Origin: Actinosynnema sp. ALI-1.44
GTDB lineage: Bacteria > Actinomycetota > Actinomycetes > Mycobacteriales > Pseudonocardiaceae
NCBI RefSeq assembly: GCF_001984155.1
Contig: NZ_MTQO01000054.1
Location: 1,178,001-1,242,000 of the forward strand
Reading direction: 5' to 3'
DNA: 64,000 bases
The first letter of the stretch is position 1, and every line of letters starts with the position of its first letter. Both the position numbers and the translations under genes were made by a program. Below, piece by piece: positions 13,403 to 64,000 of this stretch. Below the pieces are notes generated by a model that ran no database searches, was not told the origin of the DNA, and saw only the letters and a program-made list of their open reading frames with translations.

Positions 13403-14670
13403 CTACACCCATTCGTATCCCCGCCGACGTCGACATGGCCGACAAAGTGATCGGCCCCTTGACTGCCCGCCAACTCGCGATCCTCGCGGTGACCGGCCTG
13501 GTGCTCTACGCCGGGTGGACCACCACTCGCGCGGTGCTGCCGCTGCCCGTGTTTCTCGCGCTGGCTATCCCCATCGGGGTGAGCGCGGCGGTCATCGCGC
13601 TCGGCCAGCGCGACGGGATCTCGATGGACCGGCTCCTGGTCGCCGCGATCCGGCAACGCATCGGACCGCGCCACCGCGTGGCCGCCCCCGAAGGCGTTCG
13701 CCTCGCGCCGGAATGGCTCACCAGCCAGACCGCCGCCACGAGCGCGAGCCGGACCGCGGGCACCGGCAAGGGCAAGTCGGTCAAGGCCAGGAGCAAAGCG
13801 GCGGCGGCTGAGCAGATCTCGCCGTCGGCGTTGCGGCTGCCCGCCGAGGCAGTCACCGACACCGGCGTGGTCGACCTGGGCACCGACGGCCTGGCCGTCG
13901 TCGCGGTCGCTTCGACGGTGAACTTCGCGCTGCGGACACCGTCCGAGCAGGAGTCCCTGGTCGCGTCGTTCGGCCGCTACCTGAACAGCCTGACCGCGCC
14001 CGTGCAGGTGCTGGTCCGCACCGAACGACTCGACCTGTCCGGCCAGATCGCCGAGCTACGGGCACGCGCGGGCGGCCTGCCACACCCGGCGCTGGAAGCA
14101 GCCGCCGTCGAGCACGCCGACTACCTGGTGCAGCTCGGCGAGCAGACCGACCTGCTACGGCGCCAGGTGCTGTTGATCCTGCGCGAACCGATGGGTGCCG
14201 CTGGGCCGGCCGATGGGCTCGGCGGTCTCGGCCGGCTGGCGGTGTTGTCCTCGCTGACCCGCGGCAAGCGTCGCGCGAATGCCGAGACCACCCAGGCGAG
14301 CGCCGGGGCACGACGGGCGGCGGAGTCACGGCTGGTGCGCCGCCTCAGCGAGGCGATCGAGCTGCTCGCGCCCGCCGGGATCGTGGTCACCCCGCTGGAC
14401 GCCGGGCAGGCCACCGCCGTGCTCGCCTCGGCCTGCAACCCCGACACCCTGCTGCCGCCCTCGGCGGCCCTGGCCGGTGCCGACGAGGTCATCACCACCG
14501 CCGGCGGCACCGACCTGGACGACGGCGACCTCGCCGAGGACCGCGCGTTCTGGCAGGGCGACGGCCGTGCCGCGGTCGACCAGGACGACTACGGCGCGGA
14601 CGACGGCGAGGTCGACGACGGGGACTACGAGGACGAAGACGACGACTACCCGGAGAGGGGACGGTTGTGA
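13399..14670 (+). CDS. PrgI-family conjugation protein
   Basis: A 423-aa protein with a GTG start overlapping the previous stop (GTGA). The N-terminus is the PrgI signature: IRIPADVDMADKVIGPLTARQLAIL, then two membrane helices (ILAVTGLVLYAGW and VFLALAIPIGVSAAVIAL) within the first ~70 residues, corresponding to VirB3. The remaining ~330 residues are cytoplasmic, in the style of actinobacterial SCO6880-like proteins in which PrgI is fused to a long tail. The C-terminus is strongly acidic (DDGDLAEDRAF...DDDYPERG). It precedes the VirB4 ATPase, its usual partner, with another GTGA overlap. Confidence 0.8.
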   Translation: MTTPIRIPADVDMADKVIGPLTARQLAILAVTGLVLYAGWTTTRAVLPLPVFLALAIPIGVSAAVIALGQRDGISMDRLLVAAIRQRIGPRHRVAAPEGVRLAPEWLTSQTAATSASRTAGTGKGKSVKARSKAAAAEQISPSALRLPAEAVTDTGVVDLGTDGLAVVAVASTVNFALRTPSEQESLVASFGRYLNSLTAPVQVLVRTERLDLSGQIAELRARAGGLPHPALEAAAVEHADYLVQLGEQTDLLRRQVLLILREPMGAAGPADGLGGLGRLAVLSSLTRGKRRANAETTQASAGARRAAESRLVRRLSEAIELLAPAGIVVTPLDAGQATAVLASACNPDTLLPPSAALAGADEVITTAGGTDLDDGDLAEDRAFWQGDGRAAVDQDDYGADDGEVDDGDYEDEDDDYPERGRL

Positions 14671-16622
14671 TCGCCACCCGAACACGGCGCGGCCAGCGCC
14701 GTCCCAACACTCGGCCCGCCGCGCACCACCGGGCAGCCGCGTTCACACCGGACGCCCTGTCCGTCGGCGCACGGCATCTCGAGGTCGGCAACGAGTGGGT
14801 GTCCAGCTTCGCCGTGACGGGGTTCCCGCGTGAGGTGCACCCCGGCTGGCTCGCCCCTCTGTTGACCTACCCCGGCCGCCTCGACGTCGCGCTGCACGTC
14901 GAGCCGATCGACCCGGCCACCGCCGCCGCCAGGTTGAAGAAGCAGCTCGCCAAACTCGAGTCAGGCCGGCGGCACACCGCCGAGCACGGCCGCCTGTATG
15001 ACCCGCAGGTCGAAGCCGCCACCGAAGACGCCTATGACCTGTCCTCCCGCGTGGCGCGCGGCGAAGGGAAGCTGTTCCGCGTCGGGCTGTACCTCACCAT
15101 CCACGCCCCGTCCGAGCGGGCGCTGGCCGACGAGGTGGCGGCGTTGCGCTCGCTGGCGGCGAGCCTGCTGCTGGACGCCAAGCACACCACCTACCGGTCA
15201 CTGCAGGGCTGGGTGTCGACCCTGCCGATGGGCCTCGATCTGATCGGGATGCGCCGCACCTTCGACACCTCGGCGCTCTCGGCGGCGTTCCCGTTCACCT
15301 CGCCGGACCTGCCCGCGGCCGACCCGACCTCGGTGGCCGCCCCGTCGGGCGTGCTCTACGGCTACAACGTCGGATCACAGGGGCTGGTGCACTGGGACCG
15401 TTTCGGCGAAGGGATGCACAACCACAACAGCGTGATCCTCGGGCGTAGCGGCGCGGGCAAGTCCTACCTGGTCAAGCTCGAACTCCTGCGCAGCCTGTAC
15501 CGGGGAATCGAGATCGCGGTCGTCGACCCTGAGGACGAGTACGCCCGCCTGGCCGCCGCTGTGGGCGGCACCTACGTCCATCTCGGTGCCACGGGCGTCC
15601 GGCTCAACCCGTTCGACCTGCCCATCCACACCCGCGCCGACGGCCGCCGAACGGCACCGAAAGACGCCCTGGTGCGGCGGTCGTTGTTCCTGCACACCGT
15701 CATCGCGGTGCTCGTCGGCAGCGAGTTGGAAGCCGCCGAGCGGGCCGCGCTGGACCGGGGCATCGCCGCGACGTACCAGTCGGTGGGGATCACCGCTGAC
15801 GCGCGCACGTGGACCCGGCCCTCACCGACCTTGCGGACCTTGCGCGACCAGCTGGCCACCGCGGGCCAGGCCGGCGACCAGGCCGCCGCCGAGCTCGCCG
15901 CGAGGCTGCACCCGTTCGTCGAGGGCGCATTCAAGCAACTGTTCAACGGCCCGACCACCACCAACCCCGAAGGCCACCTGGTGGTGTTCAGCCTGCGCGA
16001 CCTGCCCGACGAACTGAAAGCCATCGGCACGCTACTCACCCTGGACACGGTCTGGCGGCGGGTCTCCAACCCCGCGATTCGCCGCCCGCGCCTGGTGGTC
16101 GTCGACGAGGCGTGGCTGCTGATGAAAGAGAAGTCGGGCGCGGAATTCCTGTTCCGCATGGCCAAAGCCTCCCGCAAACATTGGGCAGGCTTGACCGTCG
16201 CGACCCAAGACACCGCCGACGTTCTCGGCAACGATCTCGGCAAAGCCGTGGTGGCCAACGCAGCGACCCAAGTGCTGCTGCGGCAAGCCTCGCAGGCCAT
16301 CGACGAAATCACCCAGACCTTCGACCTGTCGGCCGGAGAACGGCAATTCCTGCTGTCGGCCGACCGAGGCCAGGGATTGCTGTCCGCGGGCACCCAGCGC
16401 GTCGCGTTCCACAGTATCGCCTCACCCACAGAGCACTACCTCGTCACGAGCAATCCGGCCGAACTCGCCGGATACGCCGCGGACGTCGACCCCGGCGACG
16501 CCGACACCGAGGAGCAGTCCTTCGTGGACCTGGGCTTCGCCAGCGAGCAGGCATATGCGGCTGAGGGCGATGAGTTCGGTTCGTTCGATGCTGACGACGA
16601 CATCGAACTCGACGCTGCCTGA
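14667..16622 (+). CDS. VirB4/TraE-type conjugation ATPase
   Basis: A 651-aa cytoplasmic ATPase that powers assembly and substrate transfer in type IV secretion. Walker A is GRSGAGKS (about 258-265), followed by VVDPEDEY (about 290). Walker B lies in RRPRLVVVDEAWLLM (about 475-490), with VATQDTADVLG after it, and a late QLLLRQ-type segment (TQVLLRQASQAID). The N-terminal ~200 residues are the VirB4 N-domain. All key motifs are intact and the length is normal. It is coupled to the PrgI-like gene by overlap. Confidence 0.9.
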   Translation: MIATRTRRGQRRPNTRPAAHHRAAAFTPDALSVGARHLEVGNEWVSSFAVTGFPREVHPGWLAPLLTYPGRLDVALHVEPIDPATAAARLKKQLAKLESGRRHTAEHGRLYDPQVEAATEDAYDLSSRVARGEGKLFRVGLYLTIHAPSERALADEVAALRSLAASLLLDAKHTTYRSLQGWVSTLPMGLDLIGMRRTFDTSALSAAFPFTSPDLPAADPTSVAAPSGVLYGYNVGSQGLVHWDRFGEGMHNHNSVILGRSGAGKSYLVKLELLRSLYRGIEIAVVDPEDEYARLAAAVGGTYVHLGATGVRLNPFDLPIHTRADGRRTAPKDALVRRSLFLHTVIAVLVGSELEAAERAALDRGIAATYQSVGITADARTWTRPSPTLRTLRDQLATAGQAGDQAAAELAARLHPFVEGAFKQLFNGPTTTNPEGHLVVFSLRDLPDELKAIGTLLTLDTVWRRVSNPAIRRPRLVVVDEAWLLMKEKSGAEFLFRMAKASRKHWAGLTVATQDTADVLGNDLGKAVVANAATQVLLRQASQAIDEITQTFDLSAGERQFLLSADRGQGLLSAGTQRVAFHSIASPTEHYLVTSNPAELAGYAADVDPGDADTEEQSFVDLGFASEQAYAAEGDEFGSFDADDDIELDAA

Positions 16623-16678
16623 CGCTGGCCGACCCTTTTCTTGATTGAGCATTTCTTACCTTCTTGGAAGGACCCGTC

Positions 16679-19330
16679 ATGCTTTCCTGGATACCGGCTG
16701 CCCTCAAACACCCCGAGCTACCCGATGTGCTGGTTGCTCACGGAATCGTGCGGACGGGCCTGACGAATGGGTGGCTCGGGGACTACCTGCGCGACCCCGG
16801 CGGCGCGCTGCTCAGGCTGCTGGATCACCTGCGGAACTGGGCGATCACCTGGGGGCCGTTTGTCGGCCCGGTGCTCGCGGTCGGCATCACGGGCTTCGTG
16901 ATCGGCCGGCGCTGGTGGGCACGGCGCTGCCACGCGAGGCTTCTCGCCAACGCCCGCCAGGTCACCGTGCTCGCCCCGCCCACCGTGGATCCCGCGGGCG
17001 GCGCGGCCTTGTGGTCCAACCTCGTCGGATTGCTGCGCCCGGCCTGGCGCCGGTGGTTCACCGGCCAGCCCCATGTGGCGTGCGAGTACGTGTTCTCCGA
17101 GGCCGGAGTCGCGATCCGGCTGTGGGTACCCGGTGTGATCCCACCCGGACTGGTCGAACGCGCCATCGAGGCCGCCTGGCCCGGCGCACACACCCGCGTC
17201 GGCACCGCCGACCCGCCCCTGCCACCTCCAGGTGAGGCGCAGCGGCGGCTGGTCGTCGGTGGCGAGCTGCGCCTCGCCCGGTCCGAGGCGCTGCCGATCC
17301 GCACCGACTTCGACGCCGACCCGATCCGTGCCCTGATCGGCGCCCCGGTCGGGCTCGGCCGCGACGAGTACGCCTGCGTGCAGATCCTGGCCCGACCGGT
17401 CACCGGCCGTCGCATCGCGAAGGCGCGCCGCTCGGCGCGGAGAGTGCACACGGGCGGCTCCACCCGCGTTGTCGGGCGCCTGCTCGACATGGTCACGCCC
17501 GGCGTGAAGAGCAGCTCCGCCCGACGCACCACGAAGGCCGGCGCCCTGCACACCGATCCGCAGACCTCGCTGGAGTACGCGGCGCAGAACCGCGCCATCG
17601 TCGCCAAGCAACGCGGCTCGCAGTACGAGACGGTCATCCGCTACGCCGTCGCCACCCTCCTGCCCACCGACGCGGTCGAGATCGAGGTCCGCCAAGCGCG
17701 GGACGTCGCCCGCGGCCGGGCACACGCACTCGCGGCGAGCTTCGCCTCCTACACCGAGCACAACCACTACACCCGCCACCGCGTCCGCCACCCAGGCCCG
17801 GTGCTGGCCGACCGTCGCCTTGGGAAAGGCGATCTGCTGTCGGTGGGCGAACTGGCCGCTCTCGCGCACTTGCCGACGGACGAGGCGATCCCTGGCGTAC
17901 AGCGCGCCGGAGCCCGTGCCATCGCGCCGCCACCGGGCATCGCCACCCCGGGACCGCAGGCCAAACCGATCGGGGTCACCGACACCGGACACGAACGCCC
18001 TGTGGCGTTGCGCGTCCCGGACGCGCGCCACCATTTGCACGTCATCGGCGCGACCGGCTCCGGCAAGTCGACGTTGCTGGGCAACATGATCCTGGCTGAT
18101 GCGGAGGCCGGGCGCGGCATCGTGCTGATCGACCCCAAGGGCGACCTCGTCACCGACGTGCTCTCGCGACTGCCGAAATCAGCCGGCGACCGCGTGGTGA
18201 TCTTCGACGCCGACTCGAAAGCCCGGCCGCCGTGCCTGAACCCGTTGGATGGCGGGGAAACCGACCTGACTGTGGACAACCTCGTCTCGGTATTCCGGCG
18301 GGTGTACTCCGCGTTCTGGGGTCCGCGCACCGACGACGTGATGCGCGCCGCCTGCCTGACCCTGCGCACCCAGGAAGGCGTCGCCACCCTCGCAGACCTG
18401 CCCAAGCTGCTGGCCGATCCCGCCTTTCGCTCACGGGTCACGGCCGGGGTCACCGACCCAGTGCTGCGCGGGTTCTGGACCTGGTACGAGGAACTCACCG
18501 ACTCATCCCGCAGCCAGGTGATCAGCCCGCTGATGAACAAGCTGCGGGCCTTCCTGCTGCGGCCCTTCGTGCGCGACGCCATCGCGGGCGGCCATTCCAC
18601 CGTGGACATGGCGGAGGTGCTTGACGGCGGGATCTGCCTGGTGCGCATCCCCAAAGGCTCGCTCGGCGAGGAAACCACCCGGCTGGTCGGGTCGCTGGTG
18701 GTCGCACGGACCTGGCAGGCCACCACCGCCCGCGCCCGCACACCGCAACGCCAACGCCGGGACGCCTCGATGGTGATCGACGAGTGTCACAATTTCCTCA
18801 ATCTGCCGTACCCGATCGAGGACATGCTGGCCGAGGCGCGGGGCTTCCGGGTCGCGATGACCCTGGCACATCAGCACCTCGGGCAGCTTCCCCGAGAGTT
18901 GCGGGAAGGCATGTCCACCAACGCCCGCAGCAAGATCTTCTTCAACGCAAGCCCGGAGGACTCGCGCGAGCTATCCCGCCACACCGCGCCCCGGCTCTCC
19001 GATCACGACCTGGCCCACCTCGGTGTGTACCACGCTGCTGTCCGGCTGGTGCTGAACGGCGAAGAGGCGCAGCCGTTCACCATGCTCACCCGCCCCCTCC
19101 CACGCGCGATCCCCGGCCGCGCACGGGAAATCCGCGGCATTGCCCGACGTGCCTTGCGTCACCGCGCTCCCGGCAGCGGCGGTCTCGCGTCCGGTCCGCA
19201 GGCCCCGACCCGGCCTCCGCAGCACCCCTCCGCCTCGGCGTCGGCGCAGCCACACCCGGCCAACGGCGACCACCGAGGCACGCCCGGCGTCCGGGCACGG
19301 AGCGCAGACCCCCGCCGCCAGCACCCCTGA
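16679..19330 (+). CDS. VirD4/TraD-type coupling protein
   Basis: An 883-aa ATPase expected to bring the relaxosome to the secretion channel at the membrane. The ATG at 16679 follows GGAAGGACC, better than the in-frame ATG at 16664. A membrane helix lies at ~60-80 (TWGPFVGPVLAVGITGFVIG). Walker A is GATGSGKS (about 457-464), followed by GIVLIDPKGDLV. Walker B is ASMVIDECHNFL (about 700) with the TraM-recognition/TraG C-terminal domain (MTLAHQHLGQLPRELREGM, ARSKIFFNASPEDSREL). The C-terminal ~60 residues are proline-rich and disordered. The core is intact. Confidence 0.9.
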   Translation: MLSWIPAALKHPELPDVLVAHGIVRTGLTNGWLGDYLRDPGGALLRLLDHLRNWAITWGPFVGPVLAVGITGFVIGRRWWARRCHARLLANARQVTVLAPPTVDPAGGAALWSNLVGLLRPAWRRWFTGQPHVACEYVFSEAGVAIRLWVPGVIPPGLVERAIEAAWPGAHTRVGTADPPLPPPGEAQRRLVVGGELRLARSEALPIRTDFDADPIRALIGAPVGLGRDEYACVQILARPVTGRRIAKARRSARRVHTGGSTRVVGRLLDMVTPGVKSSSARRTTKAGALHTDPQTSLEYAAQNRAIVAKQRGSQYETVIRYAVATLLPTDAVEIEVRQARDVARGRAHALAASFASYTEHNHYTRHRVRHPGPVLADRRLGKGDLLSVGELAALAHLPTDEAIPGVQRAGARAIAPPPGIATPGPQAKPIGVTDTGHERPVALRVPDARHHLHVIGATGSGKSTLLGNMILADAEAGRGIVLIDPKGDLVTDVLSRLPKSAGDRVVIFDADSKARPPCLNPLDGGETDLTVDNLVSVFRRVYSAFWGPRTDDVMRAACLTLRTQEGVATLADLPKLLADPAFRSRVTAGVTDPVLRGFWTWYEELTDSSRSQVISPLMNKLRAFLLRPFVRDAIAGGHSTVDMAEVLDGGICLVRIPKGSLGEETTRLVGSLVVARTWQATTARARTPQRQRRDASMVIDECHNFLNLPYPIEDMLAEARGFRVAMTLAHQHLGQLPRELREGMSTNARSKIFFNASPEDSRELSRHTAPRLSDHDLAHLGVYHAAVRLVLNGEEAQPFTMLTRPLPRAIPGRAREIRGIARRALRHRAPGSGGLASGPQAPTRPPQHPSASASAQPHPANGDHRGTPGVRARSADPRRQHP

Positions 19331-28273: not shown

Positions 28274-29503
28274 GTGATCTTGGAACGGGATGTCGCACGT
28301 CTGGTGGTGCCGGCGGTGGGCAAGCTGGTCGGTCCGTTGGACGGCGGGTCGGAGCCGTATGAACTGGTGGATGCGACGGGCGCGGTGGTGGCGCCCGTGA
28401 GTGCGTTCTTCCGCGAGTTGACGGCGTCGGGCCGTCCGATGACGACGCTTCGGTCGTATGGGATGGATTTGCTGCGGTGGTGGAGATTCCTGGCGGCGGT
28501 CGACGTACCGTGGGATCGCGCGAGCCGGATCGAGGCACGGGATTTCAGTTGCTGGATCCAAATCACGGCCAAGCCACGCCGCGGTTCGACCGCCTCCGCG
28601 GGATCCGTGAATCCGGTGACAGGCAAGCCCGCCCCTGGCGTGGGGTATGCACGGTCGACGATCGTTCACAGCGAGACGGTCCTTCGCAGTTTCTACGATT
28701 TCCATCTCGAGACCGGCTACGGACCGGTCATCAACCCGTTTCCGTTGGATCGGTCGCGACGAACCGAGCGAGCCAATGCCCACCACAACCCCATGGACCA
28801 GTTCCGTCGAAATCAAGTGGGCCGGTACCGGCCACGGGTTCCACAGCGGACGCCGCGAGGGATCCCTGATGATCGATTCGACGAGATCTTCGCAAGGTTG
28901 CCCTCGGATCGGGATCGGGCGTTGGTGGCGTTCTGGATCTCCAGCGGGGTCCGCGCGTCGGAGTTGCTCGGCGTCCGGGTCAGAGACGCCGACCCTGGTC
29001 GGCAAGTGATCACGGTGGTGCGCAAAGGAAATCGGTCCGTCCAAGAGGTTCCGGCCTCACCGGACGCGTTCGTCTACTTGCGGATCTATCAAGAACAGAT
29101 GCGTGGCCTGGTGCCGCCGGGGCGGACGCAGCCGTTGTGGTGGACACTGCGGCGACCGTACCGGCCGTTGACCTACCACGCGGCGCATCGCATGTTCGAG
29201 CGGGTTAACGCATCGCTGGGCGTGAACTGGACACTGCACGCCCTTCGGCACACCGCAGCCCAACGGATGGCCGCCGATCCTGAACTGCCGTTGACCCACG
29301 TCCAAGCCGTGTTGGGCCACGCCTCGCTGACCACGACCGAGCGGTACCTGATCCCCGGAAGGGACGCGGTAGTGGAGCAAGTGCTTGCCCACTACGCGCG
29401 GCAAGCAGCCCGGCGCACCCGGCCGACGCCTGCACCACCGCCCGGCCCAACTTACGACCCGCGATCTCTGGAGACCCTGTGGGGAAGGCCAGGTAGCGTA
29501 TGA
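28274..29503 (+). CDS. Tyrosine recombinase A of a two-recombinase transposable unit
   Basis: A 409-aa tyrosine recombinase with a GTG start. The SAM-like core-binding domain covers ~35-165 and the catalytic domain ~205-375. Catalytic residues are present: Arg in SSGVRASELLGV, H-x-x-R in LHALRHTAAQRM, His in VLGHASLTTTERYL, and the Tyr in the same block. Its end overlaps the start of a second, larger recombinase by four bases (ATGA). This arrangement of consecutive recombinases matches Tn554-type tnpA/tnpB units and related actinobacterial elements, in which both are needed for transposition. Confidence 0.85.
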   Translation: MILERDVARLVVPAVGKLVGPLDGGSEPYELVDATGAVVAPVSAFFRELTASGRPMTTLRSYGMDLLRWWRFLAAVDVPWDRASRIEARDFSCWIQITAKPRRGSTASAGSVNPVTGKPAPGVGYARSTIVHSETVLRSFYDFHLETGYGPVINPFPLDRSRRTERANAHHNPMDQFRRNQVGRYRPRVPQRTPRGIPDDRFDEIFARLPSDRDRALVAFWISSGVRASELLGVRVRDADPGRQVITVVRKGNRSVQEVPASPDAFVYLRIYQEQMRGLVPPGRTQPLWWTLRRPYRPLTYHAAHRMFERVNASLGVNWTLHALRHTAAQRMAADPELPLTHVQAVLGHASLTTTERYLIPGRDAVVEQVLAHYARQAARRTRPTPAPPPGPTYDPRSLETLWGRPGSV

Positions 29504-32344: not shown

Positions 32345-34558
32345 GTGACAAAGCGGCGACGGTGGGTGACGGCCAGCGGCGTGCTGGGCGTGGCGGTACT
32401 CGTCGGGGTGGCGGGGTACCTCGCCTCCGTCGGGCTGGAGAAGGCGGACAAGCTCGCCAGCGTGATCGGCGCGCTCGCCGGCCTGGCGGCGCTCGGCGTC
32501 TCACTGCGCGGCGGGCTGAGTCGAACATCCCAGGTGCCCGACCCGCCACCAGTCGGAGCCGGTCCGCACGCCGCCGCGCTGCACGGCCTGGCGTTGGCCA
32601 TCCAACGGCAGTGGCGGGCCGAGAGCGACCTGCGCAGGGTCAGCGACCCGTGGCCGCTGCCGGTGCGCTGGGTGAACACCCGGCGCCCGGTGGCCGACCA
32701 CTGGGACGCCGTACGCGGGAAGCCCGGCCGGACGGAAGCCCTGGATCTCGCCGGCACCCTGGAGGAGATCACCGAGGTCTATGCACGGGTGCCGTCGAAA
32801 CGGCTGGTGCTACTCGGCGAGAGCGGCGCGGGCAAGACGGTGCTGCTCATGTGGCTGGTCCTGGGTCTGCTCGACCGCCGCGCCCCCTGCGACCCGGTGC
32901 CGGTCATCTTCCCCGTGTCATCCTGGGATCCGTCCGTGCCGCTGGAGACGTGGCTGGTAAGCAAACTGGAGGAGGAGTACCCCGGCCTCGCCGCCCCGAC
33001 GCCGCAGGGCACCACGCCGGCACGCGAGCTTGTCGACGCCGACCTGGTGCTGCCGGTCCTCGACGGCCTCGACGAACTCCCTGACGGCCTGCGGAAAGAC
33101 GCCCTGCGCGGCATCAACGCCACCCTGTCCCGGCTGACCGGGGTCGTGGTGAGCTGCCGCGGCGACGAGTACGAGACCGCGGTCAGGTCCGGTGACGTCC
33201 TCTCCCGAGCAGCGGTGGTGGAACTGTGCCCACTGACTGTGGCGGAGATCCAGGAGTACCTCCGGGTCACCACACCACCGCACCGGACCGAGGCGTGGCA
33301 CCCGGTGTTCGATGCGATGGCGGAAGACCCGGACGGCCCGGTTCCACAGGCCCTGAGCACGCCGCTGATGACGTGGCTGGCACGCGTCGGCTACAGCGAC
33401 TCCGACAAGGGCCCGGCGGAACTGCTGGCGGAGCCCACACGCGAACAGGTGGAGGGCCGCCTGCTCGACCGCTACCTCCCCACGGTCTACACCGGCACGA
33501 GGTGGCGGGCGGACGCCGCCCACCGCTGGCTGCACTCGTTTGCCGTGCAGCTCGACCGGCTCGGCACCCGCGACCTCGCCTGGTGGCAGCTAGCACGAAC
33601 CGTTCCCGGCCTCCGGTACGCCATGGGCATCTCCGCCGTGCTCCTCTACCTGGCCATGATCCTTGCGCTGCACGCCTTCGTGTACCGCTCGACCACCGGC
33701 ATCGGGGACGGACTGCTGATCGCACTCGAGGTCGGTGTCGTGGCCGTCCTGCTGGGGTCGAGCAAGTACACACGGCCACCGGCGCGCATCGCCATCCGCA
33801 CCTCGGACCAGGGCCGAGACGCCTCGAAGAAGTTCCTCCGCTGGCTCTGGTACGGCATCTGGACCGGCCTGCTGCACGGGATGCTGGGTGCCCTGCTGTA
33901 CCTGTTCATTAAGGACTACGGGGTCTCTTACGGTGTAGCGCTCGCACTCGTCGCGGGGCCGCTGATGGCCTTGGAGAGCACCGCGACCTACGGCGTGCGG
34001 ATCGGTCTCATGGACGGAGTCGTCGCCGCCGTCGTGTACGGGCTCGTCGGGGCGAACGTCGGCACGCTGTGGCTCGGCCTCGCGTCCGCGCTCACGGCCG
34101 GGCTACTGCACGGGTTCGTGGCAGGCATCGTCTTCAGCCTCATCTTCGGGCTCGGGGTGCCGGAGGACCCGGCGACGTCGCGGGACCCGCACACGGTCCT
34201 CAGCGTCGACCGCGGCTCGACCATCGCCCTCGCCGTCGCGCTGGGCCTGGTGCTGTGGATCCTCATCGGCCTGGCGTTCGCGCCGCAGAACGGGTGGGCG
34301 AGCGGGGTAGTGTGGGGATTCCAGATCGGGTTCTCGGCGACCGCGCTGCTGTTCCTCTCGGCCTCCTCCTGGTGGCGCTTCACGGTGGCGCGGGTAGTCC
34401 TGGCACTGTCCGGCCGCGCTCCGCTGCGTCTGATGGCGTTCATGGATGACGCGCATCGCCGCGGCGTGCTGCGACAGTTCGGCGGCGTCTACCAGTTCCG
34501 CCACAGCAGACTGCAGGACCGCCTGCTCGCAGATGGGGGCAGCTCACTGGTTCGGTGA
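32345..34558 (+). CDS. Membrane-anchored NACHT NTPase
   Basis: A 737-aa protein of the bacterial NACHT (STAND/NLR-related) class. An N-terminal hydrophobic hairpin lies in the first 50 residues. A NACHT NTPase follows with Walker A GESGAGKT (158-165) and Walker B/sensor VLPVLDGLDELPDG (about 236-249), then LTGVVVSCRGDEY and a small helical part ending near 400. Then come about eight to ten membrane helices (430-690), and a final RRGVLRQFGGVYQFRHSRLQDRLL segment typical of actinobacterial membrane NACHT proteins. Some bacterial NACHT proteins defend against phage; here that is inference. It starts at a GTG right after the recombinase unit and may travel with it. Its end overlaps the convergent gene. 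Confidence 0.85.
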   Translation: MTKRRRWVTASGVLGVAVLVGVAGYLASVGLEKADKLASVIGALAGLAALGVSLRGGLSRTSQVPDPPPVGAGPHAAALHGLALAIQRQWRAESDLRRVSDPWPLPVRWVNTRRPVADHWDAVRGKPGRTEALDLAGTLEEITEVYARVPSKRLVLLGESGAGKTVLLMWLVLGLLDRRAPCDPVPVIFPVSSWDPSVPLETWLVSKLEEEYPGLAAPTPQGTTPARELVDADLVLPVLDGLDELPDGLRKDALRGINATLSRLTGVVVSCRGDEYETAVRSGDVLSRAAVVELCPLTVAEIQEYLRVTTPPHRTEAWHPVFDAMAEDPDGPVPQALSTPLMTWLARVGYSDSDKGPAELLAEPTREQVEGRLLDRYLPTVYTGTRWRADAAHRWLHSFAVQLDRLGTRDLAWWQLARTVPGLRYAMGISAVLLYLAMILALHAFVYRSTTGIGDGLLIALEVGVVAVLLGSSKYTRPPARIAIRTSDQGRDASKKFLRWLWYGIWTGLLHGMLGALLYLFIKDYGVSYGVALALVAGPLMALESTATYGVRIGLMDGVVAAVVYGLVGANVGTLWLGLASALTAGLLHGFVAGIVFSLIFGLGVPEDPATSRDPHTVLSVDRGSTIALAVALGLVLWILIGLAFAPQNGWASGVVWGFQIGFSATALLFLSASSWWRFTVARVVLALSGRAPLRLMAFMDDAHRRGVLRQFGGVYQFRHSRLQDRLLADGGSSLVR

Positions 34559-59461: not shown

Positions 59462-60166
59462 GCTCGTCCCCGTTCGGCTAGACCGTCCCTGATATTCCCG
59501 TTGCCGTTTGGCCAGGTCAAGGTTGGACCACGAGATGATGGCAGCTGCGCAGGCTGATGGATCAACCGGGGCGACGGAGAAACAGGCGCACAAGCTGGCT
59601 TTTGCGTTCATCGAGAAGTCGCATTGCTCACGAGGTGTGGGTACGATTCCCTTGCGCTGTCTGGCTATCGCCGAGTAAATCCTCTCTGGGCACGCCCCGA
59701 TCGGGAAGTCTGGTTACGCACGGCGTCAATCTGTTTCACCCGATCGACGTAGACGCTACTCGGATCACGTTTGGGCAGTTCAGCAGGGGTAACGCTCCAT
59801 CCGCGCCTCATCGTCGCCCCACGGCCGCTCTGGTCCGCTGCCCGTGGCGATCGTTTAGTTGATCGGTGTTCGCATCCCCATCTGCCAGCAGTGTCGGAAT
59901 CGGCTACGGGCACCGCCTGGTTAGCGCATCGAATGGTCGCCGGGTGTCGATCGTGGGCGCTTTTGACGGCCTGCGCGGATGAGAAACGACGCAACAAATG
60001 AAATAGGGACTCGCTGACTATTGGAGTGGATGATGCTCTCCCAGCGATTCGTGACGCTTTGCGCGTCGCGATGCCCACAGACTCAGCTCGCTGTGCCGTG
60101 TTTGTTCGTGCAGCCGGTGTGTCGACGGGAATGGAGTAGGGACACCGCGCGAGGCGGTGCCGCACG
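59462..60166. other. Intergenic region without a supported gene
   Basis: 705 bases before the QueC/RT operon. Reading frames here are shadows or random; no tRNA, strong hairpin or repeat stands out. The promoter of the operon should lie near 60100-60160. If the RT system needs a non-coding RNA, this is the nearest place for it inside the window, but nothing in the sequence marks one. Confidence 0.5.
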
Positions 60167-60535
60167 ATGAACACCGGACCCTGGTCCATCGCGTGCCGTG
60201 ATGTCGCCGGCCGCGAACGGACCCTGCGTGTTGTCGTGCGTGACTCGGAGGTCGTGGTCACGGCTCCCCCAGGGGAGGTCGCGGTCCTCTGCCGCGCCGC
60301 CACCGCCCAGTTCCGCTCCGCCGTCATACAAGCCGCCGAGGTGGCGACCACACCCGCGCCAGGTGCACCTGGCCCCGTCACGACAACCGGCACAGTGAGC
60401 ACAGCGGAGCAGAACAACGGCGGCCTTCCCCCAACCGCCGAGGGGCGCCCTGCTCTGCTGTCATATCGCGGCGGGACCACGACCCCGATACCTGGTTCCG
60501 CCGCGATCCCCGTCACCAGGGGTGAGGCCGGATGA
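60167..60535 (+). CDS. Small hypothetical protein, first gene of the QueC/RT operon
   Basis: 122 aa with good coding character: strands (ERTLRVVVRDSEVVVTAPPGEVAVL), a helix (RAATAQFRSAVIQAAEVA) and a disordered Thr/Pro tail. No domain recognised. Its stop overlaps the next start (ATGA), so translation is coupled through the operon. Confidence 0.65.
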   Translation: MNTGPWSIACRDVAGRERTLRVVVRDSEVVVTAPPGEVAVLCRAATAQFRSAVIQAAEVATTPAPGAPGPVTTTGTVSTAEQNNGGLPPTAEGRPALLSYRGGTTTPIPGSAAIPVTRGEAG

Positions 60536-60744
60536 TCGCCCTGTTCATCACGGCGAGCGCCGCGCTGGCGGTTGTCTGTTGCCTGCTGCGGTTGGCATGG
60601 CGGCGTCGGCGACAGACCGAATCCGCCTACGCCGGTTCGCATCGCCGCGCGCCGCGCCAGCCTCCCAACCGTGTCCTGCGGCACGCGATCGCGACCGCAG
60701 GAATGCACGGCCTCGGCATGATCAGAAAGACCGAAGGCTCATGA
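60532..60744 (+). CDS. Small membrane protein
   Basis: 70 aa: an N-terminal hydrophobic helix (LFITASAALAVVCCLLRLAW) followed by a basic tail. Starts in ATGA overlap with the upstream gene and ends in ATGA overlap with the next. No family recognised. Confidence 0.6.
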   Translation: MIALFITASAALAVVCCLLRLAWRRRRQTESAYAGSHRRAPRQPPNRVLRHAIATAGMHGLGMIRKTEGS

Positions 60745-61451
60745 GACGACCATGTCAGGCCGAGCCCGCCGCGACCTTGCTCCGTTGGCTGGGATGGCGT
60801 CACCGCAAAGTCGATTGCCGTGACGGCGACGGTCGGCGGTCCGCGCTGCACTTGCGGCGGCGCACTTCTGCGGACGTCGAGATCGAGCTGCCCGGCGGAC
60901 GGCTCGCCCGGCTGTCCAACGCTGAGGTCGGGCAGCTCCGGGCGGCGTTGCGCGAGGTGCTGCTCGTCGAGCACTCGCCGCACCGAGCGGGGTCGTCTAG
61001 TCAGATGTTGGCGCCAGGCCGGGTTTCTCGCCGTGCCTTGGACGAGCGCGCGCCCGCGTCACCGACTGCGGCCGGGCGGAAGCGGTTACACGACGTCTTC
61101 CGCTCGGCTGCCACCAGCACCCATCCCTTTCGAGGAGGGCCGACTCATGACCGCCGTCATCGACGACCAACCCGACCTGACCGAGCACCACCGAGCCGAC
61201 CAACACGGGCGGGACTACAGCGACGTGTTCGCGTGGCCGACCATCATCGACAGCACCACCGGCGACGTCCACCTGCGGCTCGGCATGAACGTCGACGCGC
61301 TCATCATGCGCGCCGGGTTTGCCGGGGAGGTCAACAACTTCCTTGCGCGGCACATGTTGTGCGCGCCCATCATCGTGGTTCCCGGCGATCCCAACGACTG
61401 GATCTTCCTCACTCAGCCACGTACGACCATGCGAACGTCGACCTGGGATGA
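60741..61451 (+). CDS. Small hypothetical protein (3' end uncertain)
   Basis: The ATG at 60741 overlaps the previous stop (ATGA). Coding character is good to about 61000: LLRWLGWRHRKVDCRDGDGRRSALHLRR, then ELPGGRLARLSNAEVGQLRAALREVLL. After that the frame stays open by chance to 61451, running into the next gene in another frame. The true end is therefore unclear: either a missed stop through a frameshift near 61000 or a long overlap. No domain recognised. Confidence 0.4.
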   Translation: MRRPCQAEPAATLLRWLGWRHRKVDCRDGDGRRSALHLRRRTSADVEIELPGGRLARLSNAEVGQLRAALREVLLVEHSPHRAGSSSQMLAPGRVSRRALDERAPASPTAAGRKRLHDVFRSAATSTHPFRGGPTHDRRHRRPTRPDRAPPSRPTRAGLQRRVRVADHHRQHHRRRPPAARHERRRAHHARRVCRGGQQLPCAAHVVRAHHRGSRRSQRLDLPHSATYDHANVDLG

Positions 61452-61632
61452 CCTGGTGCGCATCCAGGTCGGCTGGAAACGGCGCGGCGAAACCATCGTG
61501 CTCCCCGCTCTGAACAACATGGACGAAGGCGTGCGGTGGCTTGAACGACCGCAACCACACATGACCCTTCCGCCGTGGACCGCCGTGGTCGGCGCGGCCC
61601 GCTCGATGTCCTCGCTGTGCGGGGCGTGGTGA
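61147..61632 (+). CDS. Hypothetical protein of the QueC/RT operon
   Basis: 161 aa from the ATG at 61147, directly after GAGGAGGG. The middle (LRLGMNVDALIMRAGFAGEVNNFLARHMLCAPIIVVPGDPNDWIFLTQP) resembles a family of small actinobacterial proteins that look like the N-terminal part of prim-pol-type DNA primases and occur near XRE/DUF5753 regulators. This resemblance is only by pattern. It ends with the TGA that overlaps the QueC start (GTGA). Confidence 0.6.
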   Translation: MTAVIDDQPDLTEHHRADQHGRDYSDVFAWPTIIDSTTGDVHLRLGMNVDALIMRAGFAGEVNNFLARHMLCAPIIVVPGDPNDWIFLTQPRTTMRTSTWDDLVRIQVGWKRRGETIVLPALNNMDEGVRWLERPQPHMTLPPWTAVVGAARSMSSLCGAW

Positions 61633-62339
61633 GAATGCCGATCGGCACCCCTGCGCATCGGCACCCGCGCCACGCCGTCGTGATCGCCTCCGGCGGGCTG
61701 GACTCCACCGTGCTGGCCTACTGGCTGGCCGCGCGCGGGGCCGAGTTGACGCTGTTGTCCTTCGACTACGGCCAACGGCACCGGGTCGAACTGGAGCACG
61801 CGGCCGAGATCGCGCGACTGCTCAACTGTCCACACGAGACCGTTGAACTCTCGATGCTCGGTCGGCTGCTGGTCGGTTCGGCCCTGACCGACACCGACGT
61901 GCCGGTGCCTGACGGGTACTACACCGACGAGTCGATGCGGGCCACGGTCGTCCCGAACCGCAACGCGATCATGCTCGACATCGCGGTCTCCGTGGCCGTT
62001 GCCCGCAAGGCCGATGTGGTGGCGTTCGGCGCGCACGCCGGTGATCACGCCGTCTACCCGGACTGCCGACCAGAGTTCGTCGAGCGGTTCACCCGGTCAG
62101 TCCGCACCGCCAACGAGGGACTGCTGGTCGACGATTTCGAGATCCTCGCCCCGTTTCTCACCCAGAGCAAGACCGACATCGTCCGCATCGGCGCGGCACT
62201 GGAGGTTCCGTTCGAGCGGACGTGGTCGTGCTACCGGGGCGAGGCGACGCACTGCGGGACATGCGGAACCTGCACCGAACGCAAGGAAGCGTTCCAACAG
62301 AACGGCATGACCGACCCCACCAGCTACCGCTGCGCGTGA
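61629..62339 (+). CDS. queC: 7-cyano-7-deazaguanine (preQ0) synthase QueC
   Basis: 236 aa from the GTG at 61629, which overlaps the upstream stop (GTGA); an ATG at 61635 is equally possible. QueC turns carboxydeazaguanine into preQ0 with ATP and ammonia. The PP-loop is SGGLDSTVLAYW (about 20), with FDYGQRHRVELEHA following and PNRNAIMLDIAVSVAVARKADVVAFGAHAGDHAVYPDCRPEF, then WSCYRGEATHCGTCGTCTERKEAF, the zinc site with its four Cys, all intact. No QueD, QueE or tRNA-guanine transglycosylase lies in the window. preQ0 in actinobacteria serves deazapurine antibiotics or DNA modification; the operon partners argue for the latter or something new (inference). Confidence 0.9.
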   Translation: MRMPIGTPAHRHPRHAVVIASGGLDSTVLAYWLAARGAELTLLSFDYGQRHRVELEHAAEIARLLNCPHETVELSMLGRLLVGSALTDTDVPVPDGYYTDESMRATVVPNRNAIMLDIAVSVAVARKADVVAFGAHAGDHAVYPDCRPEFVERFTRSVRTANEGLLVDDFEILAPFLTQSKTDIVRIGAALEVPFERTWSCYRGEATHCGTCGTCTERKEAFQQNGMTDPTSYRCA

Positions 62340-62352
62340 AGAGGTGACGACG

Positions 62353-63333
62353 ATGACGGAGGCGGAACTCGGCTCACCGGCTGGGCCGGGGCGGGGCCGT
62401 CGTTCCTCGCGCCACGGCTCGCGCGTGTCGGGTTGCGAACCGGTACAACGTGGCGAGGGGATCGTTCCTGCCGCCCAAGCACCCAGCACGGTAGCGCAGC
62501 AGGCAGCAACCCCGCCAGCGCCCTCCACCTCCGGACCGCAGTCACACTCGCTGATGCCCCTGCTGGCTGAGCCGTACCTGCGTCGCGCGTTGCGCCAATG
62601 CGGCCGGCGAACCTCAGCACCCGGTGCCGACGGCATGACCTGGGGCTACCTCCGCCGCGAGGCCCGCGTGATGCTGCCGCAACTGGCCATCGAACTCGCT
62701 AGCGGGACGTGGCAGCCCGGACCTGTCCGCGACGTGCAGGTGCCCACCTACACCGGCAAACAAATGCACATGTTCATCCCCACCGTGCGGGATCGACTGG
62801 TGCACCGCGCGCTGCGAAACGCCCTCGAACCGGTGCTGGAAGCGGGTGCCTTCCGCGATTGGGTGTCCGGATTCCGGCCGCGCCGCAACCGCATCACCTC
62901 ACTGCGCCAGGCCGCCGTCTTCGATCAGGCGGGCTTCCGGTGGATAGCCGATCTCGACGTCGCCTCGGTATCAGAAGGCGCGACGATCGACGAAGTCATC
63001 GACTGGCTCGCCGAGCACATCCACGACGGCACTTTCTTGGCCCGCCTGCGCACCGCGCTCGCCGCGATGCCCAGTCCGATCGCGCCGGGCTCCGGCCTGG
63101 CGCCCATACTGATCAACCTCCGGTTGTCCCAAGTGGACAAGAGAGTGACCGGGCTGCGAGTCGTCCGCTTCGCCGACAACTATGTCGCCTTCGCCCGAAC
63201 CCGCGAGGACGCACAGGAGGCGTTCTACACCATCAGCGACGCACTCCTGCAGCTTCGACTGCGGCCCAACGAGGCCAAGAGCCGCATCCGCGAAGACGCC
63301 AACGTCGAAGACCTGTTCCTGATCGGCGGCTGA
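62353..63333 (+). CDS. Reverse-transcriptase-like protein with altered active site
   Basis: 326 aa from the ATG at 62353 (AGAGG nine bases upstream; a GTG at 62344 is the alternative). After ~75 disordered residues the RT motifs follow in order: APGADGMTWGYLRR (RT0), VPTYTGKQMHMFIPTVRDRLVHRAL (RT1), WVSGFRPRRNRITSLRQA (RT2), WIADLDVAS (RT3 with its Asp), GSGLAPILINL (RT4), VVRFADNYVAFA (RT5) and LRLRPNEAKSRI (RT6/7). RT5 has FADN where active enzymes have YADD/FADD, so the second catalytic Asp is Asn. No maturase, thumb X or endonuclease domain follows, so it is not an intact group II intron protein. It lies between QueC and the FGE-like gene, 13 and 3 bases away. Confidence 0.82.
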   Translation: MTEAELGSPAGPGRGRRSSRHGSRVSGCEPVQRGEGIVPAAQAPSTVAQQAATPPAPSTSGPQSHSLMPLLAEPYLRRALRQCGRRTSAPGADGMTWGYLRREARVMLPQLAIELASGTWQPGPVRDVQVPTYTGKQMHMFIPTVRDRLVHRALRNALEPVLEAGAFRDWVSGFRPRRNRITSLRQAAVFDQAGFRWIADLDVASVSEGATIDEVIDWLAEHIHDGTFLARLRTALAAMPSPIAPGSGLAPILINLRLSQVDKRVTGLRVVRFADNYVAFARTREDAQEAFYTISDALLQLRLRPNEAKSRIREDANVEDLFLIGG

Positions 63334-63336
63334 GGC

Positions 63337-63894
63337 ATGAACCTGGAATGGATCGAGGTCACCGGAGGAGTCTGCGCATTCGGGGACGCCGCGCGCCCTA
63401 TCCAGGTCCCGACCCTGTTGTGGACGCGCACCCCGATCGCCTACGGACACCTGCCGAGCGAACACCCTGACCTTGGACTGCGGTTCCCCGTCACCGAGAT
63501 CAGCCACGCCGAGGCGACCGAGATCGCCGGCCGATTGGGCGGGCGGTTGCCGCGCTCGGCGAAGTGGGAGTGGATGGCTGCCGGCACTGGCCGCCGACGC
63601 TGGCCATGGAGCAACGAACCGTGGCAACCGGCGTTCGCGAACCTCCGGGACTCCGGGCACGACACGGTCACCCCGGTCGACACGCATCCCGACGGCGCCA
63701 CGCCCGAGGGCATACTCGATGTCGCGGGCAACGTGTGGGAATGGACCGCCAACACCGCGATGAGCAACGGAGTCGTCATCCGTGGCGGTTCGTACGCCGC
63801 GCCACCGTTGTACGCGCAGTGCACGTTCCTCAACGCCGCGCCCGCTGAACTGCGCTCGCGCGGCATCGGCCTGCGGGTGGTGCGCGAACCATGA
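63337..63894 (+). CDS. FGE/SUMF1-like protein
   Basis: 185 aa with the formylglycine-generating-enzyme (C-type-lectin-like) fold: FPVTEISHAEATEIAGRLGGRLPRSAKWEWMAAG, WPWSNEPWQPAFANL, GILDVAGNVWEWTAN and VVIRGGSYAAPP...GIGLRVV, standard in order. The Cys pair that binds copper in true FGE is not there (RGGSYAAPPLYAQCTF has one Cys, at the wrong place), so sulfatase activation is unlikely. The N-terminal third of usual family members is shortened. Three bases after the RT gene and overlapping the next start (ATGA). The same fold is used by variable proteins of diversity-generating retroelements. Confidence 0.82.
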   Translation: MNLEWIEVTGGVCAFGDAARPIQVPTLLWTRTPIAYGHLPSEHPDLGLRFPVTEISHAEATEIAGRLGGRLPRSAKWEWMAAGTGRRRWPWSNEPWQPAFANLRDSGHDTVTPVDTHPDGATPEGILDVAGNVWEWTANTAMSNGVVIRGGSYAAPPLYAQCTFLNAAPAELRSRGIGLRVVREP

Positions 63895-64000
63895 CCCTTC
63901 GGCCGCCCAGCACTCGCATCCTCTCACCCGAGCAGGGTTTGATCATCCTCAACTGTTCACGGGAGAAGCTCGTCACGAGCGTCCCCGTTGCTGCGCTTGA
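63891..64000 (+). CDS. Next gene of the QueC/RT operon (partial)
   Basis: 36 codons visible from the ATG at 63891, overlapping the FGE-like stop (ATGA); the rest is outside the window. The stretch GLIILNCSREKL followed by VPVAAL recalls the start of DUF6884-type proteins (hydrophobic strand, C-S-x-x-K-L, then a P-A motif), but too little is visible to be sure. Confidence 0.55.
   Translation, partial: MTLRPPSTRILSPEQGLIILNCSREKLVTSVPVAAL

Follow-up and report, generated by a model that had tools for sequence, protein, structure and literature searches.

A mobile actinobacterial gene cluster joining preQ0 genes to a reverse transcriptase-type protein and an FGE-fold protein

The window analyzed in the present study, which is the whole stretch of 64,000 nucleotides, ends in an operon in which a gene for QueC is followed by genes for a reverse transcriptase (RT)-type protein and a protein with the fold of the formylglycine-generating enzyme (FGE), and this raises the question of what these three have to do with each other. 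A preliminary description had suggested a linked preQ0-based system that includes a (pseudo)RT and an FGE-fold partner, and the recurrence of the cluster reported below supports this view.

Layout of the operon and coding evidence

The gene positions and overlaps given in the preliminary description were reproduced from the open reading frames (ORFs) of the window (Table 1), together with its reservation on the ORF starting at 60741, the true end of which is unclear because its frame overlaps the next gene. QueC scored 218.6 bits with the Pfam QueC model and 196.1 bits with NCBIfam TIGR00364 (cut-off 150.3), the RT-type protein, with GTG at 62344 as an alternative start, 47.5 bits with RVT_1 (cut-off 29.6), the FGE-like protein 63.4 bits (Pfam cut-off 23.3), and DUF6884 40.7 bits (Pfam cut-off 30). 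These four are well supported as coding genes by comparisons with four relatives, in which codon position 3 collected most of the substitutions, as in the RT gene against locus L049 (14, 10, and 50 at positions 1, 2, and 3). The 60167 ORF showed no such bias against L049 (8, 9, and 7), so that its standing as a gene is weaker.

Table 1. Features of the operon region in window coordinates (position in locus sequence L004 + 58000)
Feature	Position	Strand	Basis
Conserved structured leader, two stem-loops, upstream of the operon	59996..60076	+	Alignment of 18 loci
Small ORF, 122 aa, no family; candidate gene	60167..60535	+	Pfam search; codon-position counts
Small ORF, 70 aa, ATGA-coupled	60532..60744	+	ATGA overlap with 60167 ORF; modest codon-position bias
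ORF starting at 60741	60741..61451	+	ATGA overlap with preceding ORF; codon-position counts
161-aa protein without Pfam family	61147..61632	+	Relatives adjoin many clusters of the window's type
QueC, 7-cyano-7-deazaguanine synthase	61629..62339	+	GTGA overlap with 61147 gene; Pfam and NCBIfam
RT-type protein of the group II intron lineage with palm and fingers but no thumb; FADN in motif C; Ser210 in the steric-gate position	62353..63333	+	Pfam, structure, alignments
FGE/C-type-lectin-fold protein without FGE cysteine pair	63337..63894	+	Pfam, alignments
DUF6884 (DpdC-type) gene	63891-64379 (63891..64000 inside the window; end = L004:6379)	+	ATGA overlap with FGE-like gene

Recurrence of the cluster and the altered reverse transcriptase

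Rightward of the window, where the preliminary description had proposed to look, DUF6884 is followed contiguously by genes for a GT2 glycosyltransferase, a radical SAM protein, a phosphoribosyltransferase (PRTase), a GT4 glycosyltransferase, a PolI-type 5' nuclease, and a PIG-L deacetylase, and the cluster reaches at least L004:12549 (window coordinate 70549). A scan of named genomes yielded 45 relatives of the RT. The complete core of eight genes (RT, QueC, FGE, DUF6884, PRTase, GT4, 5' nuclease, and PIG-L) was detected by HMMs in 37 of 46 loci, which were gathered via the RT, making its constancy a product of the search, and which are partly redundant: L060, L061, and L067 are 99.99% identical and L049 and L081 99.8%, a single RT gene is divided between L073 and L092, which lie on separate Prauserella contigs, and L051, L056, L064, L065, and L088 apparently come from the genomes G168, G132, G162, G419, and G421, respectively. 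The individual counts over these loci were 43 for QueC, 44 for FGE, 44 for DUF6884, 43 for PRTase, 42 for GT4, 41 for the 5' nuclease, and 42 for PIG-L. Outside this set, L045 has all eight core genes, and the Embleya replicon L127 has seven, PRTase not being found.

The order QueC-RT-FGE-DUF6884, the conservation of which the preliminary description had put forward as a check, is kept in 34 of the 46 loci; four of the other 12 are truncated or interrupted by the end of a contig, and the remaining eight represent a second, differently ordered subtype. GT2 and the radical SAM protein are the tailoring genes of subtype A, their place being taken by WbqC and a second GT4 in subtype B, and a DegT aminotransferase occurs in 13 of the 46 loci. 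Two of the three loci missing QueC lie at a contig end that cuts into the RT; the third, L088, retains the cluster but has no QueC locally, an observation that counts against the pathway proposed below. The link between QueC, RT, and FGE had been regarded as accidental if RT homologues mostly lacked QueC, which 43 of the 46 loci contradict, or if QueC belonged to a metabolite cluster to the right. A metabolite-like cluster is indeed present there, but the link is not accidental because RT and FGE are constant members of the same cluster. Within-cluster distance correlations (30 of the 46 loci) were 0.93 for RT-Exo, 0.92 for RT-GT4, 0.91 for RT-FGE, 0.81 for RT-PRTase, 0.76 for RT-QueC, and 0.69 for RT-DUF6884, values that fit co-inheritance and carry no weight in our argument because cluster genes alone were compared, without an unlinked-gene control.

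The predicted structure of the RT-type protein (pLDDT 82.7) matched the fingers/palm domain of an RT (Foldseek, 5irg, E 9.9e-18), and group II intron RTs ranked highest among solved structures, with the first RT of a diversity-generating retroelement (DGR) at rank 30. The alignment with 5hhj (305 residues) stops at residue 278 and that with 6ar1 (428 residues) at residue 263, close to where the protein itself ends, and no thumb/maturase domain was found in it. Phe at the steric gate of RTs normally keeps ribonucleotides out. In an alignment of 38 of the 46 RT sequences (fragments or broken frames L073, L079, L081, L082, L087, and L092 and near-identical L061 and L067 were left out), Asp203, Asp205, and Asp278 are present in all 38, position 210 is always Ser or Thr (35 and 3, respectively), and motif C is always DN (Asn279). 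In control RT loci, some of which are near-identical copies, the steric-gate Phe was found in 26/26 readable sequences and DD in motif C in 10/10. The protein thus resembles group II intron and group II-like (G2L) RTs in fold and sequence (5irg, 5hhj, 6ar1), and differs from them in the missing thumb/maturase, Ser/Thr for Phe, DN for DD, and its location in a metabolic operon; both the ribonucleotide-excluding Phe and the thumb have been lost, whereas the catalytic Asp in motif A and the first one in motif C remain. These residues suggest that the RT-derived enzyme probably uses ribonucleotides, in which case it would exemplify an RT turned into an RNA-polymerase-like enzyme, although the DN motif and the lack of a thumb could also mean a catalytically dead protein with a structural role only. 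In L081, L082, and L087, the reading frame of the RT is interrupted, and in Prauserella it is divided between two contigs (L073, L092), with neighboring genes kept; these cases, which also count against the pathway proposed below, are either pseudogenes or assembly errors.

A candidate pathway and its resemblance to nucleoside antibiotic clusters

Of the 46 clusters, 22 encode QueD and QueE, 21 of them together with QueC, and 11 encode FolE; the genome of the window has a QueD-QueE pair approximately 24 kb downstream. PTPS-family proteins were present in all 18 genomes tested, namely G000 and 17 others whose clusters are of the G000 type, and some of these proteins may not be QueD. Regarding the fate of preQ0, none of 12 genomes tested contained a protein matching the TGT-family model PF01702 (control, 14/14), which a very divergent DpdA could escape, and tRNA queuosine was therefore rejected as the purpose of preQ0.

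We tentatively propose a mobile actinobacterial cluster for a glycosylated, preQ0-derived 7-deazaguanine nucleotide that is handled by two dedicated nucleic-acid enzymes, a reading to which we give slightly less than an even chance and of which the chemical steps, the use of ribonucleotides, and the product are inferred. FolE, QueD, QueE, and QueC would supply preQ0, which a guanine-type PRTase would convert to the nucleotide. By analogy with DpdC, DUF6884 would turn the nitrile into the amide; the CxxxK motif is present in 44/44 members, and the family takes in DpdC according to PMC11888242. In Dpd systems, this domain takes part in modifying DNA, and it may not hydrate a free nucleotide. GT4 would then add an amino sugar to be deacetylated by PIG-L, with further decoration by GT2 and the radical SAM protein (subtype A) or WbqC and the second GT4 (subtype B). 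The RT-derived enzyme may link ribonucleotides, the modified one or its partner, to form a short product or add them to a nucleic acid, and the 5' nuclease, the acidic residues of which are nearly invariant (41 sequences), may cut back or free this product, with the FGE-fold protein as a putative binding or scaffold subunit. A more specific version, in which an RT recruited to metabolism, freed of its deoxy-selecting gate and thumb, polymerises or couples the glycosylated 7-deazaguanosine nucleotide and the 5' nuclease trims the resulting short modified oligonucleotide, appears unlikely, and would, if true, represent a new class of nucleic-acid-like metabolite on mobile elements.

The preQ0 genes, PRTase, glycosyltransferases, and deacetylase, tailoring genes that swap between subtypes, the DegT aminotransferase, and an FGE-like protein resembling ToxD, CalU17, and PvdO of natural-product pathways would also suit a nucleoside antibiotic cluster of the toyocamycin or huimycin kind, in which the RT and 5' nuclease would provide self-resistance or repair and have no part in assembly. 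The clusters for huimycin, toyocamycin, and tubercidin likewise combine preQ0 genes (FolE/QueD/QueE/QueC) with actinobacterial hosts, that for huimycin includes a glycosyltransferase, and the toyocamycin pathway has a PRTase (ToyH). Radical SAM, glycosyltransferase, and PIG-L-type deacetylase functions are also arranged around a nucleoside, a uridine-based one, in the tunicamycin pathway, in which we know of no preQ0 genes or RT. PMC7439116 describes preQ0 genes as common to the huimycin and toyocamycin clusters, and its main text nowhere uses the words 'reverse transcriptase'. What sets the present cluster apart from 7-deazapurine antibiotic clusters is the addition of the RT, 5' nuclease, DUF6884, FGE-fold protein, PIG-L, and mobility. 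The conserved genes showed no transporter (an exporter included) or ligase, whereas a secreted metabolite would be expected to come with one, and this speaks against the pathway proposed above as well. The RT and the nuclease recur as regularly as QueC does (the RT by construction of the search), and a biosynthetic operon is not a necessary home for repair enzymes. We consider an antibiotic cluster to be rather unlikely.

A full-text search of open-licence PMC papers, seen in part, found no description of a QueC-RT system or of an altered RT combined with a preQ0-sugar pathway, in agreement with the preliminary description, which knew of no named system with QueC, RT, and FGE; nor did the portions consulted of PMC11888242, PMC11701544, PMC4244168, PMC7159879, PMC7439116, PMC12648386, and PMC6884629 contain one. 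RTs would thereby be linked to deazapurine or nucleoside biosynthesis, a link also not found in the papers listed by that search, and a modified oligonucleotide or nucleotide as the product would mean a new bacterial metabolite class or a nucleic-acid modification on mobile elements.

Mobility, the structured leader, and the FGE-fold protein

The RT orthologue is sparse, occurring in 4 of 200 genomes of the order and 4 of 394 of the class, and the RT and FGE families co-occur in the same four class genomes, an agreement the weight of which rests on the 390 genomes without either because no fewer than three of the four had contributed sequences to the FGE model. Sciscionella marina has three copies of the cluster, one of them shortened, Amycolatopsis tucumanensis and Prauserella flavalba share more than 50 kb at 99.9-100% identity, and the window also holds conjugation genes and an integrase; the gene set is mobile among actinobacteria. 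Matches were found in 26 of 72,556 plasmid records; among the 20 listed, a 5.7-Mb linear replicon of Embleya reached 46.6% identity and the other 19 at most 32%, and the Embleya stretch is unannotated in PLSDB yet carries a subtype B cluster. A phage origin was rejected, all 10 matches among 50,697 phage records having no more than 31.2% identity.

This distribution, the multiple copies, the long shared stretch, and the mobility genes, together with the DpdC-type domain, are also consistent with defense, which the preliminary description had raised along with nucleic-acid labelling, or element protection, that is, a nucleic-acid modification or nucleotide toxin directed against phages or rival elements and travelling as cargo. 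However, mobile cargo is not necessarily defense, and PADLOC gave no whole-system match for six window proteins among the matches listed (25 of 37 rows for the RT). A generic RT model scored 132.5 bits and QueC 99.6 bits; the RT matches listed included Cas1_IIIb, an RT-bearing Cas1, at 66.9 bits, by position through its RT part, and weak models (QatC, 22.7 bits; DRT models, no more than 28 bits). Dpd DNA-modification islands share preQ0 genes and the DUF6884/DpdC-type domain with the present cluster, which differs in the absence of a TGT-type base-exchange enzyme from the 12 genomes and has an RT, glycosyltransferases, PIG-L, and PRTase instead. A defensive role is distinctly unlikely in our estimation.

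Many bacterial RTs use an adjacent non-coding RNA as a substrate, and a covarying leader, which immediately precedes the operon in window-type clusters, raises a related question. In its alignment (18 loci), 98.4% of cells are paired and 17 show double changes, against 4.9 ± 2.5 in shuffles. The model scored 86.2 bits in the window, where the leader is the only copy in the genome, and none of the 196 order genomes (of 200) that lack an RT orthologue gave a strong match. The leader could mean that the RT copies an RNA, which would count against the main reading: the RT would copy the leader or another cognate non-coding RNA, in a retron or DRT style, and the copy would receive the deazaguanine and sugar modification. 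We regard this as very improbable: the search with the model (42 of the 46 loci, without L061, L067, L079, and L092, together with the window and 14 further stretches, flanking or otherwise) did not find the leader in the Streptosporangiales, Streptomyces, and Micromonospora clusters covered or in the Actinosynnema cluster L057, Rfam gave no match at the gathering score (seven loci, 120 kb), and the single-copy leader could be a riboswitch or operator. A promoter scan around the leader found none, and blast of upstream regions in other cluster types returned local similarity only, with repeated ACCTTCACG words.

The pairing of RT and FGE-like genes, which the preliminary description had compared with DGRs and which adjoin in subtype A, did not hold up as a DGR, which was rejected on the absence of a template/variable (TR/VR) repeat among the repeat families listed for 11 kb (L004:1500-12600), the conserved C terminus of the FGE-like protein (36 sequences), and the group II-type RT, and the two genes are apart in subtype B. 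FGE itself carries a catalytic cysteine pair, unlike the present FGE-like protein, in which no invariant or nearly invariant Cys was found among the 36 sequences aligned (of 44; L050, L061, L067, L069, L081, L082, L091, and L092 were left out). The direct repeats present in L004:1500-12600 are 20-39 nt long with 66-85% identity to the reference copy in the 20 of 43 families listed.

Gene content and recurrence of the cluster

The gene starts and overlaps from which the preliminary description had proposed a coupled operon were confirmed at their positions in the window (C51:1178001-1242000 of an 11.7-Mb source genome in 54 contigs), and extension to the right revealed that the operon continues from DUF6884 through GT2, radical SAM, phosphoribosyltransferase (PRTase), GT4, 5' nuclease, and PIG-L genes (Table). 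Pfam cut-offs were exceeded by QueC and by the RT, FGE, and DUF6884 domains, and codon-position substitution counts indicated protein-level constraint on all four. The first small ORF lacked a third-position substitution excess and may not be a protein gene. The kinase-like gene just downstream of the cluster gave an APH match below the cut-off.

Table. Features of the window and its source genome (L004 continues the window; L004 position + 58000 = window coordinate)
Feature	Position	Remark
PrgI, VirB4/TraG-type ATPase, coupling-protein-like ATPase, phage-type integrase	window 13399-19330, 28274-29503	
NACHT-domain protein	window 32345-34558	possible defence gene
Leader element	window 59996-60076 (+)	
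First small ORF	window 60167-60535	
QueC	window 61629-62339 (+)	
RT	window 62353-63333 (+)	
FGE-like	window 63337-63894 (+)	
DUF6884	L004:5891-6379	Pfam domain above cut-off
GT2	about L004:6385-7410	downstream of DUF6884
Radical SAM	about L004:7645-8766	downstream of GT2
PRTase	L004:9311-9949	downstream of radical SAM
GT4	L004:9942-11063	downstream of PRTase
PolI-type 5' nuclease	about L004:11078-11920	downstream of GT4
PIG-L	L004:11917-12549	downstream of 5' nuclease
Lsr2, then radical SAM/SPASM, AAA ATPase, kinase-like gene	L004:15288-18703	just downstream of cluster
Ordinary group II-type RT	L005:3440-4225 (-)	~19 kb from cluster's RT
QueD, QueE, NUDIX, inositol-phosphatase, APH, second PTPS	L005:7772-9577 and L123:3995-6611	24-28 kb downstream of RT
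Separate QueC-QueD-QueE set	L006:9511-11629	contig C32

A scan of the RT alignment against named genomes yielded 45 loci, which were searched with HMMs together with the locus of the window. The gene set is a conserved cluster: among these 46 loci, QueC was detected in 43, FGE and DUF6884 in 44 each, PRTase in 43, GT4 in 42, the nuclease in 41, and PIG-L in 42, and the complete set of eight core genes, including the RT, was present in 37. The order QueC-RT-FGE-DUF6884 was kept in 34/46 loci. Part of the missing genes is explained by a contig end just after the RT (L072); L079 and L092 start within the RT at contig ends, the clusters of L081 and L090 run off the contig, L063 is a shortened copy from Sciscionella, and L078 is without radical SAM, PRTase, and GT4. 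QueC was not found for L088, even in the longer stretch L046.

In L081, L082, and L087, the reading frame of the RT is disrupted, and in Prauserella it is divided between two contigs (L073, L092), a point against the RT being strictly required. Since other single genes are also broken (the nuclease in L068, FGE in L082 and L091, PRTase in L049, and GT2 in L081), pseudogenes are indistinguishable from assembly errors in these loci. In L073, the RT extends to about residue 219 and is followed by ~1.4 kb without a core gene up to the contig end (L073:8577-9987), perhaps an insertion, the remainder of the gene being on L092.

The 46 loci comprise two subtypes. GT2 and radical SAM, which characterize subtype A, were each found in 35 loci, the full order of this subtype (QueC-(QueD-QueE)-RT-FGE-DUF6884-GT2-radical SAM-PRTase-GT4-nuclease-PIG-L) in 31, and a DegT aminotransferase often follows its PIG-L gene (13/46). 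In subtype B (8/46; L083, L085, L086, L088-L091, and L093), WbqC and a second GT4 replace GT2 and radical SAM, the order is different, and the RT and FGE genes are non-adjacent. QueD and QueE lie within the cluster in 22/46 loci and FolE in 11/46, counts that leave out lower-scoring pieces (e.g., L054, L057, and L078). Outside the 46, L045 of genome G322, previously used solely for RT alignment A1, carries 8/8 core genes with GT2, radical SAM, QueD, and QueE, and an Embleya replicon (L127) carries 7/8 with WbqC, a second GT4, QueD, QueE, and FolE, PRTase not being found on this replicon. The organisms of the scan include groups such as Streptosporangiales. Upstream of QueC at L071:4016-6145 is a 709-aa ORF without a Pfam family; five further loci, each of them Streptomyces, have shorter versions related to it.

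Linkage in unselected genomes and the leader element

Of 394 genomes from the class, four contained an RT orthologue with E<=5.5e-64, namely G000 (the genome of the window), G322, G419, and G421, and the FGE family (E<=1e-30) was present in exactly the same four. Because G000 was included by construction and sequences from G000, G419, and G421 entered the FGE model, the independent evidence consists of the other 390 genomes, which are without RT and without FGE. Two further RT hits, L011 and L040 (E 1.8e-27 and 2.8e-26), have Phe and DD, as ordinary RTs do. Of 200 genomes from the order, four contained an RT orthologue at E<=1e-120, and 15 had weaker hits only.

The leader is a structured, covarying element with 98.4% of cells paired (slid controls, <=57%) and 17 double-change cells vs 4.9 +- 2.5 in shuffles; there was no excess of pairs changed on both sides (4 vs 2.6, reached in 85/500 shuffles) or of further pair types (7 vs 8.2). 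Its model matched 20/57 sources at E<=7e-17, of which 18 had built the model, one was the window, where the match coincides with that in L004, and one was L081, a near-copy of L049; the model search did not find it in L057. Among the order genomes, it matched at E<=1.1e-17 in 4/200, exactly those with an RT orthologue, three of which are apparently among the model's own genomes, and five further hits were weak (E 0.003-0.06). Repeated ACCTTCACG-like words, perhaps operator sites, occur upstream of QueC at L065:4590-4740, L066:5525-5680, L068:4875-5030, and L082:5517-5670.

Use of preQ0 and the role of the RT

In the genome of the window, a QueD-QueE pair lies ~24 kb downstream of the RT and is followed by NUDIX, inositol-phosphatase, APH, and second PTPS genes, a set that partly recurs in Amycolatopsis tucumanensis. 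PTPS-family proteins, not all of which need be QueD, were present in 18/18 genomes tested. The set on C32, the QueE of which was named from its reading only, lies near an apparent NRPS-like adenylation/reductase gene and possibly belongs to another deazapurine metabolite cluster.

A model search for TGT-family proteins found none in 12 genomes, while the control matched in 14/14; therefore, unless an enzyme escapes this model through its divergence, the preQ0 of the cluster serves neither tRNA queuosine nor TGT-type DNA exchange. In a broad reading, a preQ0-derived nucleotide or nucleoside is the probable product. Gene content and order, linkage, residues, and mobility are observations, and the chemistry and substrate are, like the product, inferences. 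Excerpts of the literature place DpdC of Dpd islands in the DUF6884 family (PMC11888242), give CxxxK and LSAxxG as its motifs (PMC11701544), and assign an amidohydrolase reaction to DpdC (PMC6884629). CxxxK was present in 44/44 DUF6884 members of the clusters, and LSAxxG with variants. The Asp/Glu set of the 5' nuclease, residues of which presumably bind metal, was kept with rare exceptions in 41 sequences.

The RT resembles group II intron RTs in type (5hhj by hmmsearch, E 3.9e-39; 5irg by Foldseek with a model of pLDDT 82.7, E 9.9e-18) and ends after the palm, the thumb being absent. Asp205 and Asp278 were kept in 38/38 aligned members, with DN as motif C, and the residue five after Asp205 was Ser in 35 and Thr in 3. 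In 27 RT loci that came from these scans but are not members, some of them near-identical copies, this residue was Phe in 26/26 with a letter there, and motif C was DD in 10/10 readable, 17 cells being outside the alignment. Phe at this position is a gate that excludes ribonucleotides, and some RNA viruses have active polymerases with DN as motif C; the replacement of Phe by Ser or Thr, together with the occurrence of DN in these polymerases, thus suggests that the RT uses ribonucleotides. Its catalytic action on the preQ0-derived product is conceivable, at slightly below even chances.

The FGE-like protein has no invariant cysteine and is similar to FGE, EgtB, ToxD, CalU17, and PvdO; a connection of FGE-type domains with RT-dependent diversity systems has been described, but in the form of DGRs (PMC7159879). 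According to excerpts, the huimycin cluster combines preQ0 genes with a methyltransferase and glycosyltransferase, and the main text of its paper lacks the words reverse transcriptase (PMC7439116). The sections considered of an RT survey mention neither QueC nor the DN motif (PMC4244168). No description of this gene set was found in the parts searched of the open-licence literature; an earlier description may exist, including in subscription papers, which were outside the search.

Mobility

With the PrgI, ATPase, and integrase genes in the window, a conjugative element carries or adjoins the cluster. The loci of A. tucumanensis, A. echigonensis, and Prauserella flavalba (L060, L061, and L067) are 99.99% identical over 17 kb, and the near-identity of A. 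tucumanensis to P. flavalba covers ~50.5 kb in three pieces, including the cluster. Sciscionella marina has three cluster copies, one of which is shortened.
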